64,000 bases of DNA from Pegethrix bostrychoides GSE-TBD4-15B (GTDB taxonomy: Bacteria; Cyanobacteriota; Cyanobacteriia; Elainellales; Elainellaceae), in NCBI GenBank assembly GCA_019359155.1, contig JAHHHV010000080.1, forward strand, positions 1 to 64,000. The letters run 5' to 3'. Shown here piece after piece: positions 2,089-63,446 of the stretch. The translations under genes were made by a program, and so were the position numbers. The first letter of the stretch is position 1; the number at the start of each line of letters is the position of its first letter. The notes below the pieces were generated by a model. The model ran no database searches and had not been told where the DNA came from. It saw nothing but the letters and a program-made list of their open reading frames with translations.

Positions 2089-2196
2089 CTAGCTGCCGAG
2101 TTGGCTCAGGTTGCGAGGCGGCGGCAGGTTGCTCCCGCCTGTGGAGAAGGCTTTAGCGGTAAGAGTAAAGTCAGGTGCGAGGATGTAGTTTTTCAT
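2089..2196 (-). CDS. 35-residue LPPPR-motif peptide (copy 1)
   Basis: The peptide starts MKNYILAPDF, continues TLTAKAFSTGG and ends SNLPPPRNLSQLGS. The ATG has a good ribosome binding site (AAGGA, 7-8 bases upstream), which favours this start over an in-frame start 36 codons upstream. A second peptide at 60623-60733 has the same length and shares the layout GG-x2-LPPPR about ten residues from the C-terminus. Two unlinked short genes sharing this motif argue that both are translated. There is no hydrophobic signal segment and no cysteine. The gene lies on the same strand as, and downstream of, the CHAT-protease operon, beyond a terminator hairpin at 2299-2330, so it may have its own promoter or depend on read-through. 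I do not recognise the family. A signalling peptide, modified peptide precursor or protease substrate is possible but unproven. Confidence 0.7.
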   Translation of the reverse strand: MKNYILAPDFTLTAKAFSTGGSNLPPPRNLSQLGS

Positions 2197-2298
2197 GATG
2201 GCTTCCTTGAGGTAGTCAGTAAATGGGTCAGTAAATGAGCCTCTACTTACTAAACGCTCGACTTCGACGCCGTTATGATCTGACCTAAAGCCTCTGTA

Positions 2299-2330
2299 AA
2301 ACAAAAAGCCCCCAGAGATTTCTGAGGGCT
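2299..2330 (-). terminator. Rho-independent terminator after the CHAT gene
   Basis: Read on the minus strand, AGCCCTCAGA and TCTGGGGGCT form a ten-pair stem (one G-U) with an AATC loop, followed by TTTTTGTTTT. It lies 25 bases past the CHAT stop codon and about 100 bases before the LPPPR peptide start, so it separates the two genes or acts as an attenuator between them. Confidence 0.85.
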
Positions 2331-2354: not shown

Positions 2355-5075
2355 CTATGTTGCTGGGCAGGACGTACCGGGCACTAGCTTAAAGGGTTGG
2401 TTCATGTTGTTCTGGGGCGTGGTCAGCAGACGAGAATCCAGCTCTTTGCGGTCGCCATTTGCGTCAAAGCTGATCGTCTTGTCTTTGAACACAGCGCTTT
2501 CTACCCCGTTCAGACTGGTCAGGCTTTGCTGAATCTGAGTTGAGGTCACGTCAGGGCTAAGCGTCGCCTGCAAAGCTTGTACTGCTTCATAGGAGAGCGC
2601 AGCCGTACGGTTTACGCCCCCAAACCAGTAGACTTCTTCTGCATCCTTGACAAAGCTAACCCCATCTTCCACAGCACAGGCTCGGTACCAGTCGGTTGCA
2701 ATAATCAGTTTGGCTGTGAGGTTTTCAATTGCCCCGCCTGTTTTGATCACGATTTCGTCATAGAGCGGGTTTGAGCCAAGAACGAGGCGCTGGCCGCTGT
2801 TGGCTTTGATCACTTCTACGGCGCGATTAAACGCATCAGGATTGCCGCTGCGGCCATCGGGCAAGACCGCCAGCGCATCGACGCTGCTCACCTGGGTCAG
2901 GGCTGCTTCAACATCTAGCGGCTGGGACAGATCAACCGTCTGCACAACGACACCGTTTTTAGCATTCAAAGCCGCCTGAAATTGATTGAACAAGTCGAGA
3001 CTAAACGAATCCTCTTTGTTGTAAAAGATTGCCACCTTTGGGCGGGGCTGTGACTGCACCAGATAGTCTACCAACGCCTCTGCCTCAATTGCAGTCGAGG
3101 AAGTCGTGCGGAAGAAGAGGTCTGAATCGCCACAGTCTTGGCGTAGATTGGCCGCAGTGCTAAGCGGCGAAACTACCGGGATTTTGGCGGCGCGATAGAC
3201 TTCTCTCAGTGCCTCGCAGGTACTATCGCTGATGTAATGCCCCACAACGGCCAAAATGCGGCGACCGTCAAAGCGGGCATTATCTGCCAGCGATTTAGCG
3301 ACGGCCTTGGCTTGGCTTGGCTGATTGAGATCGTTCACCACCACAATTTCTAGATTAACCGGAGCGCCGCTGACTGGATTCACCGCCCGGTCTTGCGCCT
3401 GAGCGATACCAAACAGCATTTGCTGCCCGATGTTAAGACTCAGCGGCACCGCTGCGGCAATGGTGTAGATGGGTTCTCCGCTTTTGTGACGCAGCCGCAC
3501 TGCCGCGTTGTTTTGATAGATCAAGACAGTGGGATCTTTCAGCGCTTGATCTGCTGCCTGAAACTCTAGGCTGGTGCGAGACTCCTGCCGCCACTGCGTT
3601 TTGGCCTCAGAGCGGATCTGAGCAAACTTTGCCTCTGCCGTCGCGTAGTCTGCGTTGGCAAATGCACTCATTCCTTCCTGCTTCAGATCACCGTACCTGC
3701 CGCTCAGCTCAATAATGCTGTGACTCATCGGCTTTTCCCCCGCGCTAATCAGCTCAGCGGCAGGTAAAGGCGGGGCGACATGCCCAGACGGAGTCTCAGG
3801 CGAGCGAGCCACAGACGAAATTATTGGCAGCGCAATCTTGAGCAACCCTGCCAATAAAGCCATCGTGCCCACAGCCGCCGCAATTTTAATCGCATTTGAG
3901 CGAGGTGGTGGGGAAGGCGGTGTTGGGGGAGGTGGTGCTGGCTCTGGGGCTAGCGGCAGTAAATTATCCAGCAGCTTCTGCCAGGTCAGCGGCTCCGAGT
4001 TCTGCTTAATGCAGGCGGTCGGCAGCCAAGTCACCTCAGAATACCGCGTATTAAAATGCTCTAGCTCCTGCCGAGCCAGTCGGACTGAGCGCAGTAGAGG
4101 CTGCCGCTCCTGCACAAATTGGTGAAAAAACCGATCGATAAACTCAACGGCCACTCTGTCAGGGACTGGCTCTTTCATCACAATGCAGCGCGGCATATCG
4201 AGCTGCGCGAGCTGTTGCGCCAGCCCCAAACTGTCGCAAGAGTTAAAGATTGCCAGCTGCAACCCTTTTTGGATCACTTTTTTGAGCGCAAACTTAAAGT
4301 CAGCAATGCTCAATTCGTCGGTTTCATTCAGCAGCAGCCAGCCAATCTGACCGTCATCACTGCTCCTGCTATGCCCAACATATACCAGAATGTGATAGCC
4401 CTGAGCGTCGCTGAGCGCTGTTTGCAGATCTCTAGTCGAGGGCTGAGACAGCACAATCACTTCGACATGGTCGGAATCGTTAGTTTGTAAGGTCTCAAGC
4501 GTCTGCAAATCTGCTGCCGTCTGAATATCTGCACTCTCCCCAATAATTACCAAAATTCTGATCTTTGCAGCCTGCGGATAGATGGGCGACGCAGGGGGAA
4601 GCGCCTGTTGGGAAAGCGCTCTCAGCGCTGGGTCAGTTCTGGGATAGCGAGTCATCAGCAGATCCCAATCCTGCCAGGGCAGCTTTTTCAGAGTGGTTTC
4701 CTGCCCCAAGTCAATCATCAGGCGCGGTTCAGTGCGGTGGGAAAGCGCAACTAACGTTTCGCGAATTCGCCACCACTCTTTATCTGGAAAGCTCAGCCAG
4801 CTATTGAACTGATCCCTCAACACTTCAGAACGCTCAATTACCTCCCGGACGGAGAGCGTTGTGATCTCACCCGCAGCAATTCGATAGTGCGACCGCACGC
4901 CTTCCTGCCCGGAGTAGGCTCGCTTCCAGTCAGCTAATGCAGCCTGCAATTCTGGCGGCACTGGGGGAAGCAGCGCTTCAAGCTCCTCAGCACCTCCCGG
5001 ATCAAGCCTGACCCGAAAATCTGTATCTGGGCTGTTACTGTTGCGGGAACGAATTACTAACCGAATCATCGACAT
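2355..5075 (-). CDS. Transmembrane CHAT protease with periplasmic ligand-binding domain
   Basis: This 906-residue protein has a clear three-part layout. Residues about 170-360 form a CHAT (caspase-like) protease domain with the histidine in YVGHS (H235) and the cysteine in FNSCDS (C280), so both catalytic residues are present. A proline-rich linker (about 376-392) leads to one membrane helix (about 394-420). Residues about 520-890 resemble the type I periplasmic binding fold of branched-chain amino acid receptors, with the typical VVGHYISD and IPVVSPLST segments. The likely topology is protease inside and ligand sensor outside. The N-terminal 160 residues match nothing I know. It is the third gene of a minus-strand operon with a sigma-like regulator and DUF1822. 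In cyanobacteria, sigma-like/DUF1822/CHAT (often CHAT-CHASE2) gene sets recur; here CHASE2 is replaced by a ligand-binding domain. The ligand and protease target are unknown. Confidence 0.88.
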   Translation of the reverse strand: MSMIRLVIRSRNSNSPDTDFRVRLDPGGAEELEALLPPVPPELQAALADWKRAYSGQEGVRSHYRIAAGEITTLSVREVIERSEVLRDQFNSWLSFPDKEWWRIRETLVALSHRTEPRLMIDLGQETTLKKLPWQDWDLLMTRYPRTDPALRALSQQALPPASPIYPQAAKIRILVIIGESADIQTAADLQTLETLQTNDSDHVEVIVLSQPSTRDLQTALSDAQGYHILVYVGHSRSSDDGQIGWLLLNETDELSIADFKFALKKVIQKGLQLAIFNSCDSLGLAQQLAQLDMPRCIVMKEPVPDRVAVEFIDRFFHQFVQERQPLLRSVRLARQELEHFNTRYSEVTWLPTACIKQNSEPLTWQKLLDNLLPLAPEPAPPPPTPPSPPPRSNAIKIAAAVGTMALLAGLLKIALPIISSVARSPETPSGHVAPPLPAAELISAGEKPMSHSIIELSGRYGDLKQEGMSAFANADYATAEAKFAQIRSEAKTQWRQESRTSLEFQAADQALKDPTVLIYQNNAAVRLRHKSGEPIYTIAAAVPLSLNIGQQMLFGIAQAQDRAVNPVSGAPVNLEIVVVNDLNQPSQAKAVAKSLADNARFDGRRILAVVGHYISDSTCEALREVYRAAKIPVVSPLSTAANLRQDCGDSDLFFRTTSSTAIEAEALVDYLVQSQPRPKVAIFYNKEDSFSLDLFNQFQAALNAKNGVVVQTVDLSQPLDVEAALTQVSSVDALAVLPDGRSGNPDAFNRAVEVIKANSGQRLVLGSNPLYDEIVIKTGGAIENLTAKLIIATDWYRACAVEDGVSFVKDAEEVYWFGGVNRTAALSYEAVQALQATLSPDVTSTQIQQSLTSLNGVESAVFKDKTISFDANGDRKELDSRLLTTPQNNMNQPFKLVPGTSCPAT

Positions 5076-5140
5076 GCTGCTGCCCTAATCTCTCAGTTCA
5101 ATACCAATTCAATATAAGCACGAATGAATTGTCTTCTAGC

Positions 5141-6154
5141 TCAGACGCAGAATTCCTCTATGACGCTGCTCTCGCCAATTGAAATCCGAACGCTAAATCG
5201 CTCGCCGGGGCGACAGTCTAGCAGCTCTAGCTCCGTCCAAACGCTTTCTTCTTTGGGCTGAGATTCTAAAATGACCGTGCCCGACTCGTCCAGTGCGGCC
5301 ACTTTGAGCTGGCTGGGCAGGCAGGTCGAAGCTTGGTCTGGATAGAGTTTTAGGCAAACATTCAGGCTGTTTTCTGCTGCAACTACAGATAGCACCTGCA
5401 CCACCAGCACGACTGTCTGTTCAAGTTGCCCAGACTGCCCAGACTGCCCTGATTGAGTCAGCTGGATTGCCGTAGCTCGCGTCACTGAGCTGGCCTCAGC
5501 ATAGCGCGGCTCTTGCTCAGGAGAATTGCTGCCCATGGCGCTTCTAGAGCCAGACCGAGAGTTTCTAAATCGGCTGGGCACTAGCTCCTCTACAGAGCGC
5601 CACTTTTCGCTAAACTGCCCCTCTAGCCACTGCCGCAGATCGTTAATTGCCGCTTCAGGGTGTAGCAGGTTGAGCAGCGCATCGAGGGGCAGCAAATCCT
5701 GAAGCTGGATTTCTATTGGCGCAATTGCCTGCTCTGCCGACTGTGCTAATTGATCTGCCGCAGCCCGCACAAAGCCCAGCAGCTCGACCGTATTGAGATC
5801 TTCTTGAAACTGCACTGCTACATAGCCAATCCGATCTGTAGCTGATATCGGCACGGCAAAGGCGGCATCTCCTGGCAAGACGGGACGACATTCCAGCAGG
5901 CCAACTTCGGGAATAGCCAGATCTGCAATGTCAAATATGGCTCTTAGTCCGGGCTGCCAGCAGTCAGACTGGGTGAGATCGGTCGAAATTTCCAGCCAGT
6001 TGAGATAAGTATGTACAGCGTAAACGGCCAGCGTGTTCAGGTAAACCTGCTTGCCTTTGGCGGTCGTTGCCTGCTCAGCCGCGAATTGGGCAGCCTTTGC
6101 ATGGGCTTCGCGCGGCAGGGGAACTGGCATTCTCAGTAATGTTGCAATACTCAT
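5141..6154 (-). CDS. DUF1822 family protein
   Basis: The protein has 337 residues. The N-terminal segment, with TAKGKQVYLNTLAVYAVHTY followed by a WLEI motif, is typical of the cyanobacterial DUF1822 family, which has no assigned function. The middle (about 195-245) is low in complexity, with serine/arginine stretches and a short repeat of SGQ units. The C-terminal 95 residues look like a beta-rich domain. The gene sits between the sigma-like regulator and the CHAT receptor-protease on one strand, with 66-73 base gaps. No strong ribosome binding site precedes the ATG, so translation may depend on the operon context. Its constant pairing with these two partners suggests a role in the same signalling chain, which is inference. 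Confidence 0.85.
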   Translation of the reverse strand: MSIATLLRMPVPLPREAHAKAAQFAAEQATTAKGKQVYLNTLAVYAVHTYLNWLEISTDLTQSDCWQPGLRAIFDIADLAIPEVGLLECRPVLPGDAAFAVPISATDRIGYVAVQFQEDLNTVELLGFVRAAADQLAQSAEQAIAPIEIQLQDLLPLDALLNLLHPEAAINDLRQWLEGQFSEKWRSVEELVPSRFRNSRSGSRSAMGSNSPEQEPRYAEASSVTRATAIQLTQSGQSGQSGQLEQTVVLVVQVLSVVAAENSLNVCLKLYPDQASTCLPSQLKVAALDESGTVILESQPKEESVWTELELLDCRPGERFSVRISIGESSVIEEFCV

Positions 6155-6226
6155 GAGCGTTTAATGTCCATTGATGATCAGCGAAGAATTATCAGTAAAG
6201 AATTGAGCGAAAAACTGAGCGAAAAA

Positions 6227-7099
6227 CTATGAGCGAAACTGTTTTAGAATCGGCAGGCATTTACCTTCCCAATGTTGCCAAACATCCGCAACTCTGGGTA
6301 GATGCATCGCCTGAGCAATCTCCTGAACTCCTACTGCCGGATTGGTCAGTAAAAGCTGCTCTGAGAGATTCCAGCAGTTGCATTCTGGATGTCCCTCAAG
6401 CTGAACTTGACTCAGACTTTCTTTCAGCTCAGGGCTAACAATTTCCTGCTTCAACGGCTCGTCAAACCGTAAAGCAATCAGGCGGAGCAGCGGCTGACAT
6501 TTTGTTCTCCAGTGCGTGTAAAGCGCCTGTTCACGAACGCCAAATTCAGCAGCCACCGCTCGGACTGTTGCGGGCGGCTCCTGCAAATGTATTCGCACCG
6601 CCAAAACCTGACAGTTATATGCGGAATTTTGACGCAGATGGCAGCTACCTAAAATACCTTCCGGATCTTGTTCAATATATGTCCGAATTTCCTGACCAGT
6701 CCGCTTGAGTTGTTTCGCCTGCAAATCCTTGATCAGTTTGTCCAGTGAGCTGAGGCTTGGTGTCGGATCTGGGATGTTAGATTTTGCTATATCATTCCTA
6801 CCATCAGAACGATATAGCTCTGTGATTCGCCAGCTGAGATAGCGATTCACCCATTTCATAAAATCTTCTGACTGAGTCGGTGGCGGTTTGTCAGGTTCAA
6901 AGCCTTCGATTTTTTTGGCGACCCAGAGCAGGGTTCGATCTAGAGCATCATAGTAATCTGGATGTCTGTTGCGGAGCAGCCTCGGCGACTGCTGAATCTG
7001 CATGAGCAGTTTCGACAGGCAGCGTTCTCGCTGTAACCGTAGCTCCGAACGCTGATTAACCTGATCCAACAAATCCTGAAATCGCTGATCATCACACAT
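6227..7099 (-). CDS. Sigma-70-like regulator of the DUF1822/CHAT operon
   Basis: From the ATG at 7099 (MCDDQRFQDL) the protein has 290 residues. I prefer this start to one 16 codons upstream because it overlaps the stop of the preceding small ORF in the coupled arrangement ATGTGTGA. The segment FMKWVNRYLSWRI resembles the region-2-like helix of the divergent sigma-70-like proteins that precede DUF1822 genes in cyanobacteria. A helix-turn-helix of region-4 type is visible at TVRAVAAEFGVREQALYTHW. A second, weaker repeat of this layout occurs near the C-terminus (VQEIAQAMHL). The family is annotated as a sigma factor by similarity; whether it binds core RNA polymerase is not established. Confidence 0.75.
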   Translation of the reverse strand: MCDDQRFQDLLDQVNQRSELRLQRERCLSKLLMQIQQSPRLLRNRHPDYYDALDRTLLWVAKKIEGFEPDKPPPTQSEDFMKWVNRYLSWRITELYRSDGRNDIAKSNIPDPTPSLSSLDKLIKDLQAKQLKRTGQEIRTYIEQDPEGILGSCHLRQNSAYNCQVLAVRIHLQEPPATVRAVAAEFGVREQALYTHWRTKCQPLLRLIALRFDEPLKQEIVSPELKESLSQVQLEGHPECNCWNLSEQLLLTNPAVGVQEIAQAMHLPRVADVWQHWEGKCLPILKQFRS

Positions 7100-7292
7100 A
7101 GCTGGGAACCGCTTTAATAGGAGCACAGCCGAGGCCAGACTTCTCATCTCTCAACAGCAGCTTAGCCGCTTTGCAGAACAAACGAAACCCCGATTCACCC
7201 GACAGATTTTTCATGCTAGATCTCACTAAATCCTGTTGAAGCAGCTCTGATTTGACGCTCTCAGACTGGATATCCGGCGCGGCTTTTGACAT
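7092..7292 (-). CDS. Small protein translationally coupled to the sigma-like gene
   Basis: The ORF encodes 66 residues starting MSKAAPDIQSESV. The ATG has GGAG seven bases upstream, and the stop overlaps the start of the sigma-like gene by eight bases, which is typical of a genuine coupled first gene. The product is soluble, with one cysteine pair (LFCKAAKLLL and GLGCAPIK). It matches no family I can recall. If real it is the first gene of the sigma/DUF1822/CHAT operon and might be a regulator or an attenuating leader peptide. The evidence is only the start signal and the spacing. Confidence 0.5.
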   Translation of the reverse strand: MSKAAPDIQSESVKSELLQQDLVRSSMKNLSGESGFRLFCKAAKLLLRDEKSGLGCAPIKAVPSYV

Positions 7293-59836: not shown

Positions 59837-60238
59837 CTATTTGCGCAGCTGCCAGATTTCTCGGAGCTGTTGCGCCATATGTTTGAGCATCAGTTCGACC
59901 TCTGCGGAGGACAGATAGCCGAGATGCTGAGCGATCTGTTGAAACTGGGCGGCAGTGGGGGATGGGCAGGAGCCACGATAGCCCTCCGCACGCAGCTTCA
60001 GCAGGCCGGGACGATAGACTGCCTGATAGCGGGTGAGCAAGGCGCAGCTCTGAGCAGCTTCCGCCGCAGGCATCTGATTCATTTGGCTTAAAGCTCGAAA
60101 CCGCTCTGGCTTTGTCCCATTTAGGATAGCCCAGTCACTTTGTAGTGAGGAGCGCTGAATCAAACCTTCCTGAACTGCATAAGCTGTCTGCTGATCAACT
60201 GTAGAAGGTATTGTGAAAGCCTCAAAGTCTTGCGTCAT
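59837..60238 (-). CDS. Small protein of unknown function
   Basis: I do not recognise this 133-residue protein (MTQDFEAFTIPSTVDQQTAY). It is polar and mainly helical, with FRALSQMNQMPAAEAAQ and VELMLKHMAQQLREIW near its ends. There is no signal peptide, membrane segment or cysteine cluster beyond two cysteines (SCALLTRYQ, GSCPSPTAAQ). It is convergent with the ABC transporter and divergent from the LPPPR peptide, 384 bases away. Confidence 0.65.
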   Translation of the reverse strand: MTQDFEAFTIPSTVDQQTAYAVQEGLIQRSSLQSDWAILNGTKPERFRALSQMNQMPAAEAAQSCALLTRYQAVYRPGLLKLRAEGYRGSCPSPTAAQFQQIAQHLGYLSSAEVELMLKHMAQQLREIWQLRK

Positions 60239-60622
60239 GAGTTAAGTTCCTGTTCTAGATGCGGGATGGATCAATCTGCTTAGCGTTCACTGTTAGCGTA
60301 GTCAAAATCCAAATCACTTTTTAGCTGAATGTTCAGCCAAATGTTCAGCTTATAGTTCACTGATTCGGATGCGATGGCAATCAGCCTAGCGTCGTGCTCA
60401 GTCTGGCCTTCGCTGTACCTAGATGAAATTGCCCTGCCGATTTTTGCGGATCTGCAATAAAACTTTGCAATCTGCGTCAGGTTCTGCGCCAAATTCAGAT
60501 TTTTTGTAAAAAAACGTAAAGGACTTGTACTTTTAGCTGCTCGAAACCGATTTAGAACTGTCATCCCAAAGCATTTGGTTTCGCGGTCTGTGCTCTGACT
60601 TATCTTAATTAGGAGAACCAAA
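60239..60622. promoter_or_regulatory. Region upstream of LPPPR peptide copy 2
   Basis: This 384-base stretch lies between two divergent genes. An ORF of 120 codons on the minus strand (60280-60642) is rejected because it runs over the peptide's ribosome binding site and has no recognisable product. AT-rich tracts at 60488-60540 and the AGGAG at 60611 probably belong to the promoter and leader of the peptide. Confidence 0.5.
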
Positions 60623-60733
60623 ATGTTGAATCCAACAGTCAATGGAACGGCTCAGAGACTCTCTGGTGTCAACGGTGGTGATCAACTGCCGCCGCCTCGG
60701 CTGGCCTTTGGCAGCGCTAGCTGGCTAAGCTGA
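60623..60733 (+). CDS. 36-residue LPPPR-motif peptide (copy 2)
   Basis: The peptide starts MLNPTVNGTAQRLS, continues GVNGGDQ and ends LPPPRLAFGSASWLS. AGGAG lies seven bases before the ATG, an excellent ribosome binding site. It has the same length as the peptide at 2089-2196 and the same GG-x2-LPPPR block, with little similarity elsewhere. Its stop overlaps the convergent NB-ARC gene end by nine bases, so the two 3' ends are intertwined. It has no signal peptide or cysteine. It is too short for routine gene calling. I do not know the family; a peptide substrate, signal or modified-peptide precursor are options. Confidence 0.72.
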   Translation: MLNPTVNGTAQRLSGVNGGDQLPPPRLAFGSASWLS

Positions 60734-63259
60734 CCTAGCTTGGGATCTCGGTTGAGATTTGGCTGGGGATTTAGCTTGAGATTTGGCAATGGCGACAGCT
60801 CTTGCAGATTGGCTATCCTCAGCAATCAAGGCACTGGCTCTCTCGGCTTCGGCAGTCATGCCAATCTGCTCAAAAATTGCTAGCGCAGCGGTCGCATATT
60901 GCTGCTGAGTCACTCGATCGGCCTGAGCCTGAGCGAGTCTAGCAAACGAAAGCTGAATCAACGCGACCCGGCGATAGTCGGCGTTGGTCTCGGCAATTTG
61001 CAGCCCTTTCGTCAGCAGTCGGGCAGCTAGGTCAAACTCTGCCTCAGCAGTTGCCACGTCAGCGATTGAGGTCTCAATCACCTGAGCCAGTCGATCCATT
61101 TCTAGCGTTTGAGCGTAGTCCCGTGCGACTGTGAGGTGGGACTTGGCAGCAGCAATTTCACCCGCATCTAGATAAGCCCAGCCCTGATAGTAGCGGGTGT
61201 GGCTGAGGCATTCCAACCGCTTGCGCTCGTCTAGCCCTGCCTGCTCTAAGATCGCCTCTGACTGACTCAGCCAGGTTTGAGCCTGGGTATAGGACTGCTG
61301 CTTGATTTGTACCAGGCCGATCTGTCGGGCGAGGTTGGCCTGTTCTTTCAGGTCTTGATGCTCTCGGATATTCCAGGCTTGCTCTAGCAGATCGCTGGCA
61401 GCATGCAAGCCGCTGGGGTCTCCGGCTTCAATCAGCACCCAGGCTTGGAAAAACATGGCGGTTCCGGCAATCCGCCAGTCCTGACGCTCGGTTGCGGTAT
61501 CAATCAGCCATTTTGTCCAAGTCAGGCCAATTTGCCAGTAGCGCAGGCAAACTGTCCCTCGACCCGTGATGTAGAAGTAGGGCTTGAGGTTTTGCCAGAG
61601 CCGCAGCATATCCGCATAGTTCCCGACTTTCATACAGTAGTCGGCAACGGCCTGTATATTTTCCCATTCTTGATCAAGCCCATCAAACTGTCCCTGCCAG
61701 CCTGCTGGATCTTGACTACGATAGCATTCTGAAAAGTCGAGATACCAGTTCACCCAGCGGCTGCGGGCGGCCTGCTCAAACTGAGGCTGTCTAGCTAATT
61801 CGGCAAGTAGATAGCTGCGGGTGAGGGAGATAATCCAGTAGCGGCTATCGCCTTCGGCTGTGCGGGCTTGCGTAATCAACGACAGGGTTTGCAGCTGCAC
61901 CATCGCATCTTCGGCCAGATCGGTTTCTAGATCAGGAATAGCCGTGGCGATCAGAGCTTGGCGCAGGGCGGGTTCTGGGAACAGGACGGTGGCCAGCAGC
62001 AGCCAGTAGGCGGGCTGATTGTGAATCGACTGCACCGAACCTTCAAAGCAATATTGCGCCAGATGTCCGGTGGGCTGCAAAATCCGGCTTTGGACTTCCT
62101 GCATGGAATAGCCCCAGGCTAGCTGCCCCACGGCTAAATCAATCGCAATCGGCAGGCCGCCCGTGAGCTGATAGAGCGTTTTACTGTCTTCAGAGCGCAG
62201 CGACACGCCTAGCTCGCCTGCCTGCGACTGCACGAGGCTGAGGCCGTCGTCTTCGGGCAGGGCGCTGAGCCGCATCGGCACGCCGCTGATGCCTTCGCGG
62301 GTGGTAATAATGGTTTTGACCGAGAGCGGTAGGTCGCAGAGAAAATCGCTGATGTCCTGCTGATTCTCGACGACTTCTAGATTATCGACAATCAGCAGCG
62401 TCCGGTAAGCCGCCAGCACTCGATAAATTAGGGTAATTTGCTCTTCAAAGCTGAGCGCCGAACTCTGGGCTTCGATGAGATTGTTGCGATCGAGCATTTC
62501 AATAATCTGGCGGACGAGGTCTTTTTGGTGGGGGTCGCGTCGCGTCTGAAGACCGCTGTAGGTTAAGTGATGCTGCTTGGCGGTGCTGTAGATGATCATG
62601 TCGAAGATGGGCATGTTGGGCGGTGCTTCGGGGGCACAGCTCGCATGCAGGCAGCGTCTAGCACAGGCAATGGTCAGCGAGGTTTTACCCACGCCGCCGA
62701 GTCCGGTGATGCAGATGAGCGGAGCCGCATGGCTGGGCAGCAGCAGTTTTAGCAGCCGCGCTACTTCGGCTTGGCGACCGATGAATCGGTTATAGGGCTG
62801 TTGGGGAAGATTGTGCAGAATGCGCTTGGGGAGATGCGATGAGCGGTCGAGCAGAGCGGGGGGCGGGAAATTTGCTGGGCGATCTGCTGGGCGATCTGGT
62901 GAGGGAACAGGCTGCAACTCTGCGCTCAATTTAGCCTCGGCTTCTTCTAAAAACAGCCTGACGTTTTTGGCTCCGACCGTTTTGCCGCCAGCTTTGCCGC
63001 CAACTTTGCCGCCAGCTTTGCCGTCGCTGGTCTCGCCGAGCGCCTTCCAGAGCTTTGGGGCAATCTGGCGTTCGATGGTGGATTGTTCGTAGCCAATCGC
63101 GTTGCCCATGATCGCTTTGACTGTCTTCAGCGACCGACCCGCCAAAATATGTCGCAGAATAACCTTCTCATGCAGATCTAGCAGTTTGTTAGAGTGAGCC
63201 GCTAGCAGCTTCTGGGCAACGTCGATCAAAGCTTCGATTTTGGCGTTTTCTGGGTTCAT
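60725..63259 (-). CDS. NB-ARC ATPase with N-terminal helix-turn-helix and TPR repeats (STAND protein)
   Basis: From the ATG at 63259 the protein has 844 residues; a TTG start 11 codons upstream is possible. The N-terminal 95 residues resemble the helix-turn-helix that opens many cyanobacterial STAND proteins (LHEKVILRHILAGRSLKTVK, IAPKLWKALGE), followed by a Gly-Gly-Lys repeat. The NB-ARC domain shows the P-loop ITGLGGVGKTSL (about residue 190), Walker B TLLIVDNLEVV and GGLPIAIDLA. The C-terminal half is a helical TPR array (IRQIGLVQIKQQSYTQAQTW). STAND proteins act as switches in signalling or phage defence, triggered through their repeats. No effector domain is visible, so output may be DNA binding. 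It ends tail-to-tail with LPPPR peptide copy 2. Confidence 0.9.
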   Translation of the reverse strand: MNPENAKIEALIDVAQKLLAAHSNKLLDLHEKVILRHILAGRSLKTVKAIMGNAIGYEQSTIERQIAPKLWKALGETSDGKAGGKVGGKAGGKTVGAKNVRLFLEEAEAKLSAELQPVPSPDRPADRPANFPPPALLDRSSHLPKRILHNLPQQPYNRFIGRQAEVARLLKLLLPSHAAPLICITGLGGVGKTSLTIACARRCLHASCAPEAPPNMPIFDMIIYSTAKQHHLTYSGLQTRRDPHQKDLVRQIIEMLDRNNLIEAQSSALSFEEQITLIYRVLAAYRTLLIVDNLEVVENQQDISDFLCDLPLSVKTIITTREGISGVPMRLSALPEDDGLSLVQSQAGELGVSLRSEDSKTLYQLTGGLPIAIDLAVGQLAWGYSMQEVQSRILQPTGHLAQYCFEGSVQSIHNQPAYWLLLATVLFPEPALRQALIATAIPDLETDLAEDAMVQLQTLSLITQARTAEGDSRYWIISLTRSYLLAELARQPQFEQAARSRWVNWYLDFSECYRSQDPAGWQGQFDGLDQEWENIQAVADYCMKVGNYADMLRLWQNLKPYFYITGRGTVCLRYWQIGLTWTKWLIDTATERQDWRIAGTAMFFQAWVLIEAGDPSGLHAASDLLEQAWNIREHQDLKEQANLARQIGLVQIKQQSYTQAQTWLSQSEAILEQAGLDERKRLECLSHTRYYQGWAYLDAGEIAAAKSHLTVARDYAQTLEMDRLAQVIETSIADVATAEAEFDLAARLLTKGLQIAETNADYRRVALIQLSFARLAQAQADRVTQQQYATAALAIFEQIGMTAEAERASALIAEDSQSARAVAIAKSQAKSPAKSQPRSQARSA

Positions 63260-63446
63260 AAGTCGCTGGGGGCTTTGGTTTTGCAGAGCCAAGATCGCTG
63301 AGCTATCGGGTATGAGCTATAGAATACTAAGCTGTCGGTTCAGAATCGACCCTGATTTTCATCTATTTAACCAACTCTACTGGCTGAAATAGTTCAGAGA
63401 GTTCATTTTCTTCATTTTTGGGAGCTTGCTGCCGTCACAAAATAAT

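Follow-up and report, generated by a model that had tools for sequence, protein, structure and literature searches.

RRNPP-type signaling peptides of Gram-positive bacteria, such as PapR, carry a short C-terminal motif in a variable precursor. In double-glycine leaders, GG, GA, or GS stands at the cleavage site, and hydrophobic residues occupy positions of about -4, -7, and -12 relative to it. Three consecutive prolines (PPP) can stall ribosomes.

Among cyanobacteria, the micro-proteins norf1, norf4, nsiR6, and hliR1 are encoded by unannotated, free-standing open reading frames (ORFs) of <80 codons (PMC5126843). The EbfG peptides have precursors of 9 to 10 kDa and mature forms of 6 to 7 kDa (PMC4997328). 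C39-type double-glycine peptidases accept both GG and GA (PMC4997328). No literature report of LPPPR in cyanobacteria was found.

Peptide genes and their homologs

The host genome contained 5.72 Mb in 92 contigs and was 99.97% complete, and its class relatives are cyanobacteria. The window is the whole 64,000-nucleotide stretch that was analyzed. It contains two short ORFs of 35 and 36 residues with strong ribosome binding sites, as the original prediction had stated. Both start with ATG and have AGGA(G) 7 to 8 nt before it. The DNA pattern GG-x2-[LF]PPP followed by R or a few other residues has exactly two matches in the 5.72-Mb genome, both in the window. A reversed-pattern control for GG-x2-[LF]PPP gave zero matches in the whole genome, and the strict motif was expected 0.00 times by chance in shuffles of the window. 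Neither peptide matched Pfam or NCBIfam, even at an E value of 10.

Peptide gene 1 (own1) was located at positions 2089 to 2196. It lies on the minus strand and encodes the 35-residue peptide MKNYILAPDFTLTAKAFSTGGSNLPPPRNLSQLGS. Its ATG is at 2196, and the ribosome-binding-site-like AGGA is at 2204 to 2207 (minus strand), 7 nt before the ATG. It contains the core motif S-N-L-P-P-P at 2116 to 2133 (minus strand).

Peptide gene 2 (own2) was located at positions 60623 to 60733. It lies on the plus strand and encodes the 36-residue peptide MLNPTVNGTAQRLSGVNGGDQLPPPRLAFGSASWLS. Its ATG is preceded by the ribosome-binding-site-like AGGAG at 60611 to 60615 (plus strand). It contains the core motif D-Q-L-P-P-P at 60680 to 60697 (plus strand).

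Homologs were retrieved through their neighbor genes, after strict-motif matches in relatives had proved to be chance. The strict GG-x2-LPPPR matches in 98 relatives were rejected; they lay in or across other genes or had no start. Two congeners contained homologs in the same syntenic positions. Genome G004 is the metagenome-assembled genome "uncultured cyanobacterium PMM_0073" of the same genus and was 77% complete. It encodes G004-1, MVIPTLASQALSSICRFSLGADNLPPPKATMTAAD, downstream of an ortholog (65% identity) of the CHAT gene that adjoins peptide gene 1. G004-1 has the length and motif position of peptide 1, and its D-N-L-P-P-P aligns with the core. G004 also encodes G004-2, MMNAMISETSQTIAKRAYSSGGEQLPPPINYSIN, between orthologs of the 133-residue and STAND genes that flank peptide gene 2. 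Both G004 copies have an AGGAG site, which at locus 2 is the site kept from peptide gene 2. The second congener, G002, encodes two tandem peptide ORFs (G002a and G002b) before the 3' end of the STAND gene. One, MTQVLFWGCTFSEHAFSGHASSGCALDAIGLSFTSLVGNGEQLPPPPA, has a GGAGG site and the other, MNQSITLSMMPNLSPFDGEEQLPPTKGM, has a GAGG site. Each of these G002 and G004 homologs combines an upstream purine-rich site with an open frame. The core of peptide 2 reads E-Q-L-P-P-P in both G004-2 and G002a.

A third candidate was retrieved from contig C41 of the host genome with a relaxed profile and pattern. This candidate (own3) is intergenic, has a GGAG site, and may encode the 22-residue peptide MNSIYTTIVRLKQTDGDNLPPP. 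Near it is an AstE/AspA-LysR pair with 63% and 65% identity to the pair beside the G002 peptides. The aspartoacylase (AstE/AspA) and LysR genes are divergent (L315:338-404, minus strand; L315:1236-3188; L198:1420-3491). G002 contained a weaker candidate, G002c (MKVTVILFWLDCDLDLAAEQLPPTLIPTVQR), with a poor ribosome site. Both candidates adjoin genes other than CHAT or STAND genes.

Because the G002 tandem copies differ in the core (G002b has PPT in place of PPP), the core common to the family relaxes to [DES]-[NQ]-L-P-P-[PT]. GG is present in own1, own2, and G004-2, with GA in G004-1, NG in G002a, GE in G002b, and DG in own3, so that GG or GA occurs in 4 of 7 members. LPPP or LPPT is followed by R, K, R, I, P, K, or a stop codon. 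Confirmed copies contained 28 to 48 residues, and the range is 22 to 48 with own3. The LPP part of the predicted GG-x2-LPPPR motif was therefore retained, its GG and final Arg were not, and a length of 35 to 36 residues is not a family trait.

Neighboring genes

A minus-strand run of three genes precedes peptide gene 1. It encodes an HTH-like protein (6227 to 7147), a DUF1822 protein (5141 to 6154), and, last, a 906-residue protein with CHAT and Peripla_BP_6 domains (2355 to 5075; Pfam). The run (2355 to 7147) has the same order in G004, and the peptide gene follows it there as well. The CHAT gene is regarded as a neighbor of the peptide gene. Its CHAT part weakly resembles the cell-division protein HetF (NCBIfam E value of 2.7e-6, far below the cut-off). 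A terminator-like hairpin with a T run follows the CHAT gene at 2307 to 2330 (minus strand) and separates the run from peptide gene 1. On its other side, peptide gene 1 is convergent with a PMT_2 glycosyltransferase gene (455 to 2002).

Peptide gene 2 is convergent with a gene for an 855-residue NB-ARC STAND protein (60725 to 63292, minus strand; Pfam). This gene, likewise regarded as a neighbor, also adjoins the peptide gene or genes in G004 and G002. The gene for a 133-residue protein (59837 to 60238, minus strand) is divergent from peptide gene 2. This protein had no match in Pfam, NCBIfam, or PADLOC. It corresponds, in stand-alone form, to one domain of a 524-residue protein of the host (L044; E value of 3e-11), whose gene adjoins a further gene. 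Homologs of the 133-residue protein in relatives are mostly inside frames of 450 to 580 codons.

Neither copy is cotranscribed with its CHAT or STAND neighbor, as copy 1 follows the hairpin and copy 2 is convergent. No same-strand gene follows the peptide gene at either window locus; the next genes are convergent. The hairpin and the convergent neighbors therefore make the peptides free-standing genes without a downstream gene to attenuate. No modification gene or export leader was seen at the loci.

The predicted location of the copies beside a CHAT gene and a STAND gene holds in more than one species. Peptide and CHAT genes are adjacent in both the host, where a glycosyltransferase gene forms the other flank, and G004, where a LysE-like transporter gene does. 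Peptide and STAND genes are adjacent in the host, G004, and G002, where the other flank is now LysR/aspartoacylase. That the peptide keeps its neighbor despite a changed flank hints at a functional link. CHAT and STAND relatives without a peptide are common in other genera. The CHAT ortholog of a further genome (G011, L055) contains an in-frame TAG. An inverted-repeat element and a transposase-like frame occupy the expected place of its peptide, which may reflect decay by insertion.

Selection and distribution

The core codons of the host and G004 differ at both loci. The NLPPP codons of locus 1 are AAC CTG CCG CCG CCT in the host and AAT TTA CCT CCG CCC in G004. The QLPPP codons of locus 2 are CAA CTG CCG CCG CCT and CAG CTG CCG CCC CCG, respectively. 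All of the core nucleotide differences are silent (8/8), a count that is partly circular because the homologs were recognized by the motif. Locus 1 retains N, and locus 2 retains Q. Beyond the core, the DNA of the locus-1 pair shows 34% identity, which is the random level, and 5 of 29 residues are identical (P = 0.08). The intergenic sequence around the confirmed copies is randomized. When the same number of changes was placed randomly, both cores were kept in about 0.0005 to 0.0035% of trials. This figure presupposes that the motif was found, and it serves to rule out that the DNA itself is what is conserved. Core amino acids that are kept while their codons change silently point to selection on the protein. 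RNA folding of the peptide loci was no better than that of shuffles (z = -0.45 and -1.01).

The positions of the homologs give an argument for selection that is independent of motif-based finding. A pattern of ribosome binding site, ATG, and motif had 5 matches in 388 other class genomes (~0.013 per genome). The only two matches from G004 fall in the two syntenic gaps. The host copies are not chance ORFs, because homologous short ORFs occupy the same two places in a congener.

A 23-nt block, GTCGARCGTTTAGTAARTAGAGG, was located at 2240 to 2262 (minus strand), 40 to 66 nt upstream of copy 1. The G004 ortholog is preceded by the same block at almost the same distance. It is likely a promoter or regulator site of gene 1. 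When up to 3 mismatches were allowed, the block occurred nowhere else in five congeneric genomes, and a role as a regulon-wide element was rejected in favor of a locus-specific one.

A profile hidden Markov model (HMM) was built from four of the peptides. It retrieved no credible member outside the genus from 36 genomes of the family and 390 of the class. Those next-best matches of the class search that were read in context (E values of 0.003 to 0.04) run across genes and were rejected. A pattern search of the 390 class genomes likewise yielded nothing credible outside the genus. Two look-alikes were rejected as antisense, L016 in a coding gene and L157 in a gene resembling that of gamma-glutamyl phosphate reductase. 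Among the matches listed for a relaxed pattern in 117 genomes, none outside the genus was credible. Those of its outside-genus matches that passed an [NQ]-L filter and were read in context crossed another ORF with 120 codons or more (38/38 among the matches listed). This overlap filter is imperfect, because a spurious long frame also overlaps G004-1, a true member. The pattern of ribosome binding site, ATG, and G[GA][DE][NQ]LPPP had 45 matches in 84,980 GTDB genomes, and the credible short ORFs were the two PMM_0073 loci only; this narrower pattern does not cover copy 1 or either of the G002 copies. Two frames were found in viral contigs, neither with an in-frame ATG, and plasmids and phages gave best E values of 3 or worse; neither set contained a credible member. 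Short diverged members may escape these searches.

Among the genomes searched, the family was found in three related genomes of one genus, and a widespread cyanobacterial family was not supported. The original prediction that the two ORFs are related small-peptide genes with a conserved core was borne out by the homologous short ORFs at both places in a congener and by the silent core changes; neither outcome named as refuting it, a lack of homologous short ORFs or codons without a sign of selection, was observed. Both syntenic conservation and a protein-level selection pattern, which mark a micro-protein family, were found. The two ORFs very probably represent a real coding family. It appears to be a new, unannotated, genus-restricted family of micro-proteins, whose translation we infer.

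Candidate functions and known systems

We tentatively favor a multi-copy, genus-confined family of free-standing small peptides that is kept for its [DES]-[NQ]-L-P-P-[PT] motif while the rest drifts fast. The peptides would be translated and largely unstructured. They may act inside the cell as ligands or inhibitors, with a polyproline-type motif that would dock onto one shared partner protein; LPPP could be a natural polyproline ligand. Conservation in six residues towards the C terminus of drifting peptides is typical of a short linear motif. The AlphaFold model had a pLDDT of 68 and contained no secondary structure. A short-linear-motif regulator is suggested by this conservation pattern with some reserve, and a six-residue motif could serve other roles.

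Chance likeness of ORFs in GC-rich sequence is very unlikely. Look-alikes with short frames do exist (L016, L129, and L157), and the locus-1 pair is barely alike outside the core. The members of the genus, however, recur at the same syntenic places with ribosome binding sites. The look-alikes outside the genus that passed the filter all lay across another ORF, and both of the rare G004 pattern matches were in syntenic gaps. A regulatory leader ORF with ribosomes stalled at PPP, or a dual-function small RNA, would fit short free-standing transcripts, which are likely here. It is improbable given that no same-strand gene lies within reach downstream at either window locus, that G002b contains PPT, and that the RNA folds no better than shuffles. 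The acidic or Ser residue, Asn or Gln, and Leu before the prolines are also kept as amino acids and not as DNA.

Processing by a peptidase was considered in two forms. In one, a C39 peptidase-transporter cuts after GG or GA and exports a signal or bacteriocin of 12 to 17 residues. Such peptides are common in cyanobacteria, and four members contain GG or GA. Double-glycine export fails because the GG is variable (G002a, G002b, and own3 have neither pair) and the hydrophobic leader pattern is missing. Read by eye, residue -4 is S, S, V, and S in own1, G004-1, own2, and G004-2. The remnants would be unusually short compared with mature EbfG. No C39 peptidase-containing transporter was seen within the window, and there is no transporter gene at the loci. 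This form is distinctly unlikely. In the other, the peptides are substrates or inhibitors of a CHAT or caspase-like protease that cuts LPPPR after Arg. A CHAT gene adjoins copy 1, and Arg or Lys follows PPP in own1, own2, and G004-1. The residue is Ile in G004-2 and Pro in G002a and is absent in own3; a P1 Arg is therefore not conserved, Arg-directed proteolysis fails, and this form is highly improbable. The peptides may instead be signals or triggers sensed by their neighbors, peptide 1 by the CHAT/periplasmic-binding protein and peptide 2 by the NB-ARC STAND protein. The adjacency that survives a change of flank (CHAT in two genomes and STAND in three) favors this. The genes, however, are convergent or separated by a terminator and never form one operon, gene order is kept anyway among close relatives, relatives of the neighbors occur in other genera without such a peptide, and own3 and G002c adjoin other genes. 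Sensing by the neighbors is unlikely. A broader version, in which diversifying ligands with [DES][NQ]LPP[PT] are read by the adjoining STAND and CHAT sensors and thereby give the conflict or programmed-death networks of cyanobacteria a branch that senses peptides, is quite unlikely.

If the core binds one shared partner, as in the favored linear-motif reading, a single peptide pull-down with GGDQLPPPRLAFGSASWLS could identify it. Should the neighbors be receptors, natural triggers of cyanobacterial CHAT and STAND proteins would become testable. The two host genes are a clear example of genes so small that they tend to escape standard gene calling. One genome led to the family, and synteny and codon pattern then confirmed it. 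Even such short peptides can thus be recognized as a family by a six-residue core when the remainder is saturated.

Like EbfG1-4 of Synechococcus elongatus, the peptides are small and cyanobacterial, contain GG or GA in some members, and diverge fast (PMC4997328). They differ from EbfG1-4 in their mass of 2 to 5 kDa, variable GG, lack of a leader pattern, and lack of a peptidase-transporter gene at the loci. They share with RRNPP-type peptides a short C-terminal motif in a variable precursor, here near a STAND protein. Unlike those peptides, they have no secretion signal and belong to a different phylum, and any maturation or receptor would be putative. The family differs from norf1, norf4, nsiR6, and hliR1 in that it is multi-copy and genus-restricted, is conserved only in a six-residue core, and is known here from its sequence alone. 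Like those micro-proteins, it is unannotated and free-standing and was found by comparing related strains (PMC5126843).
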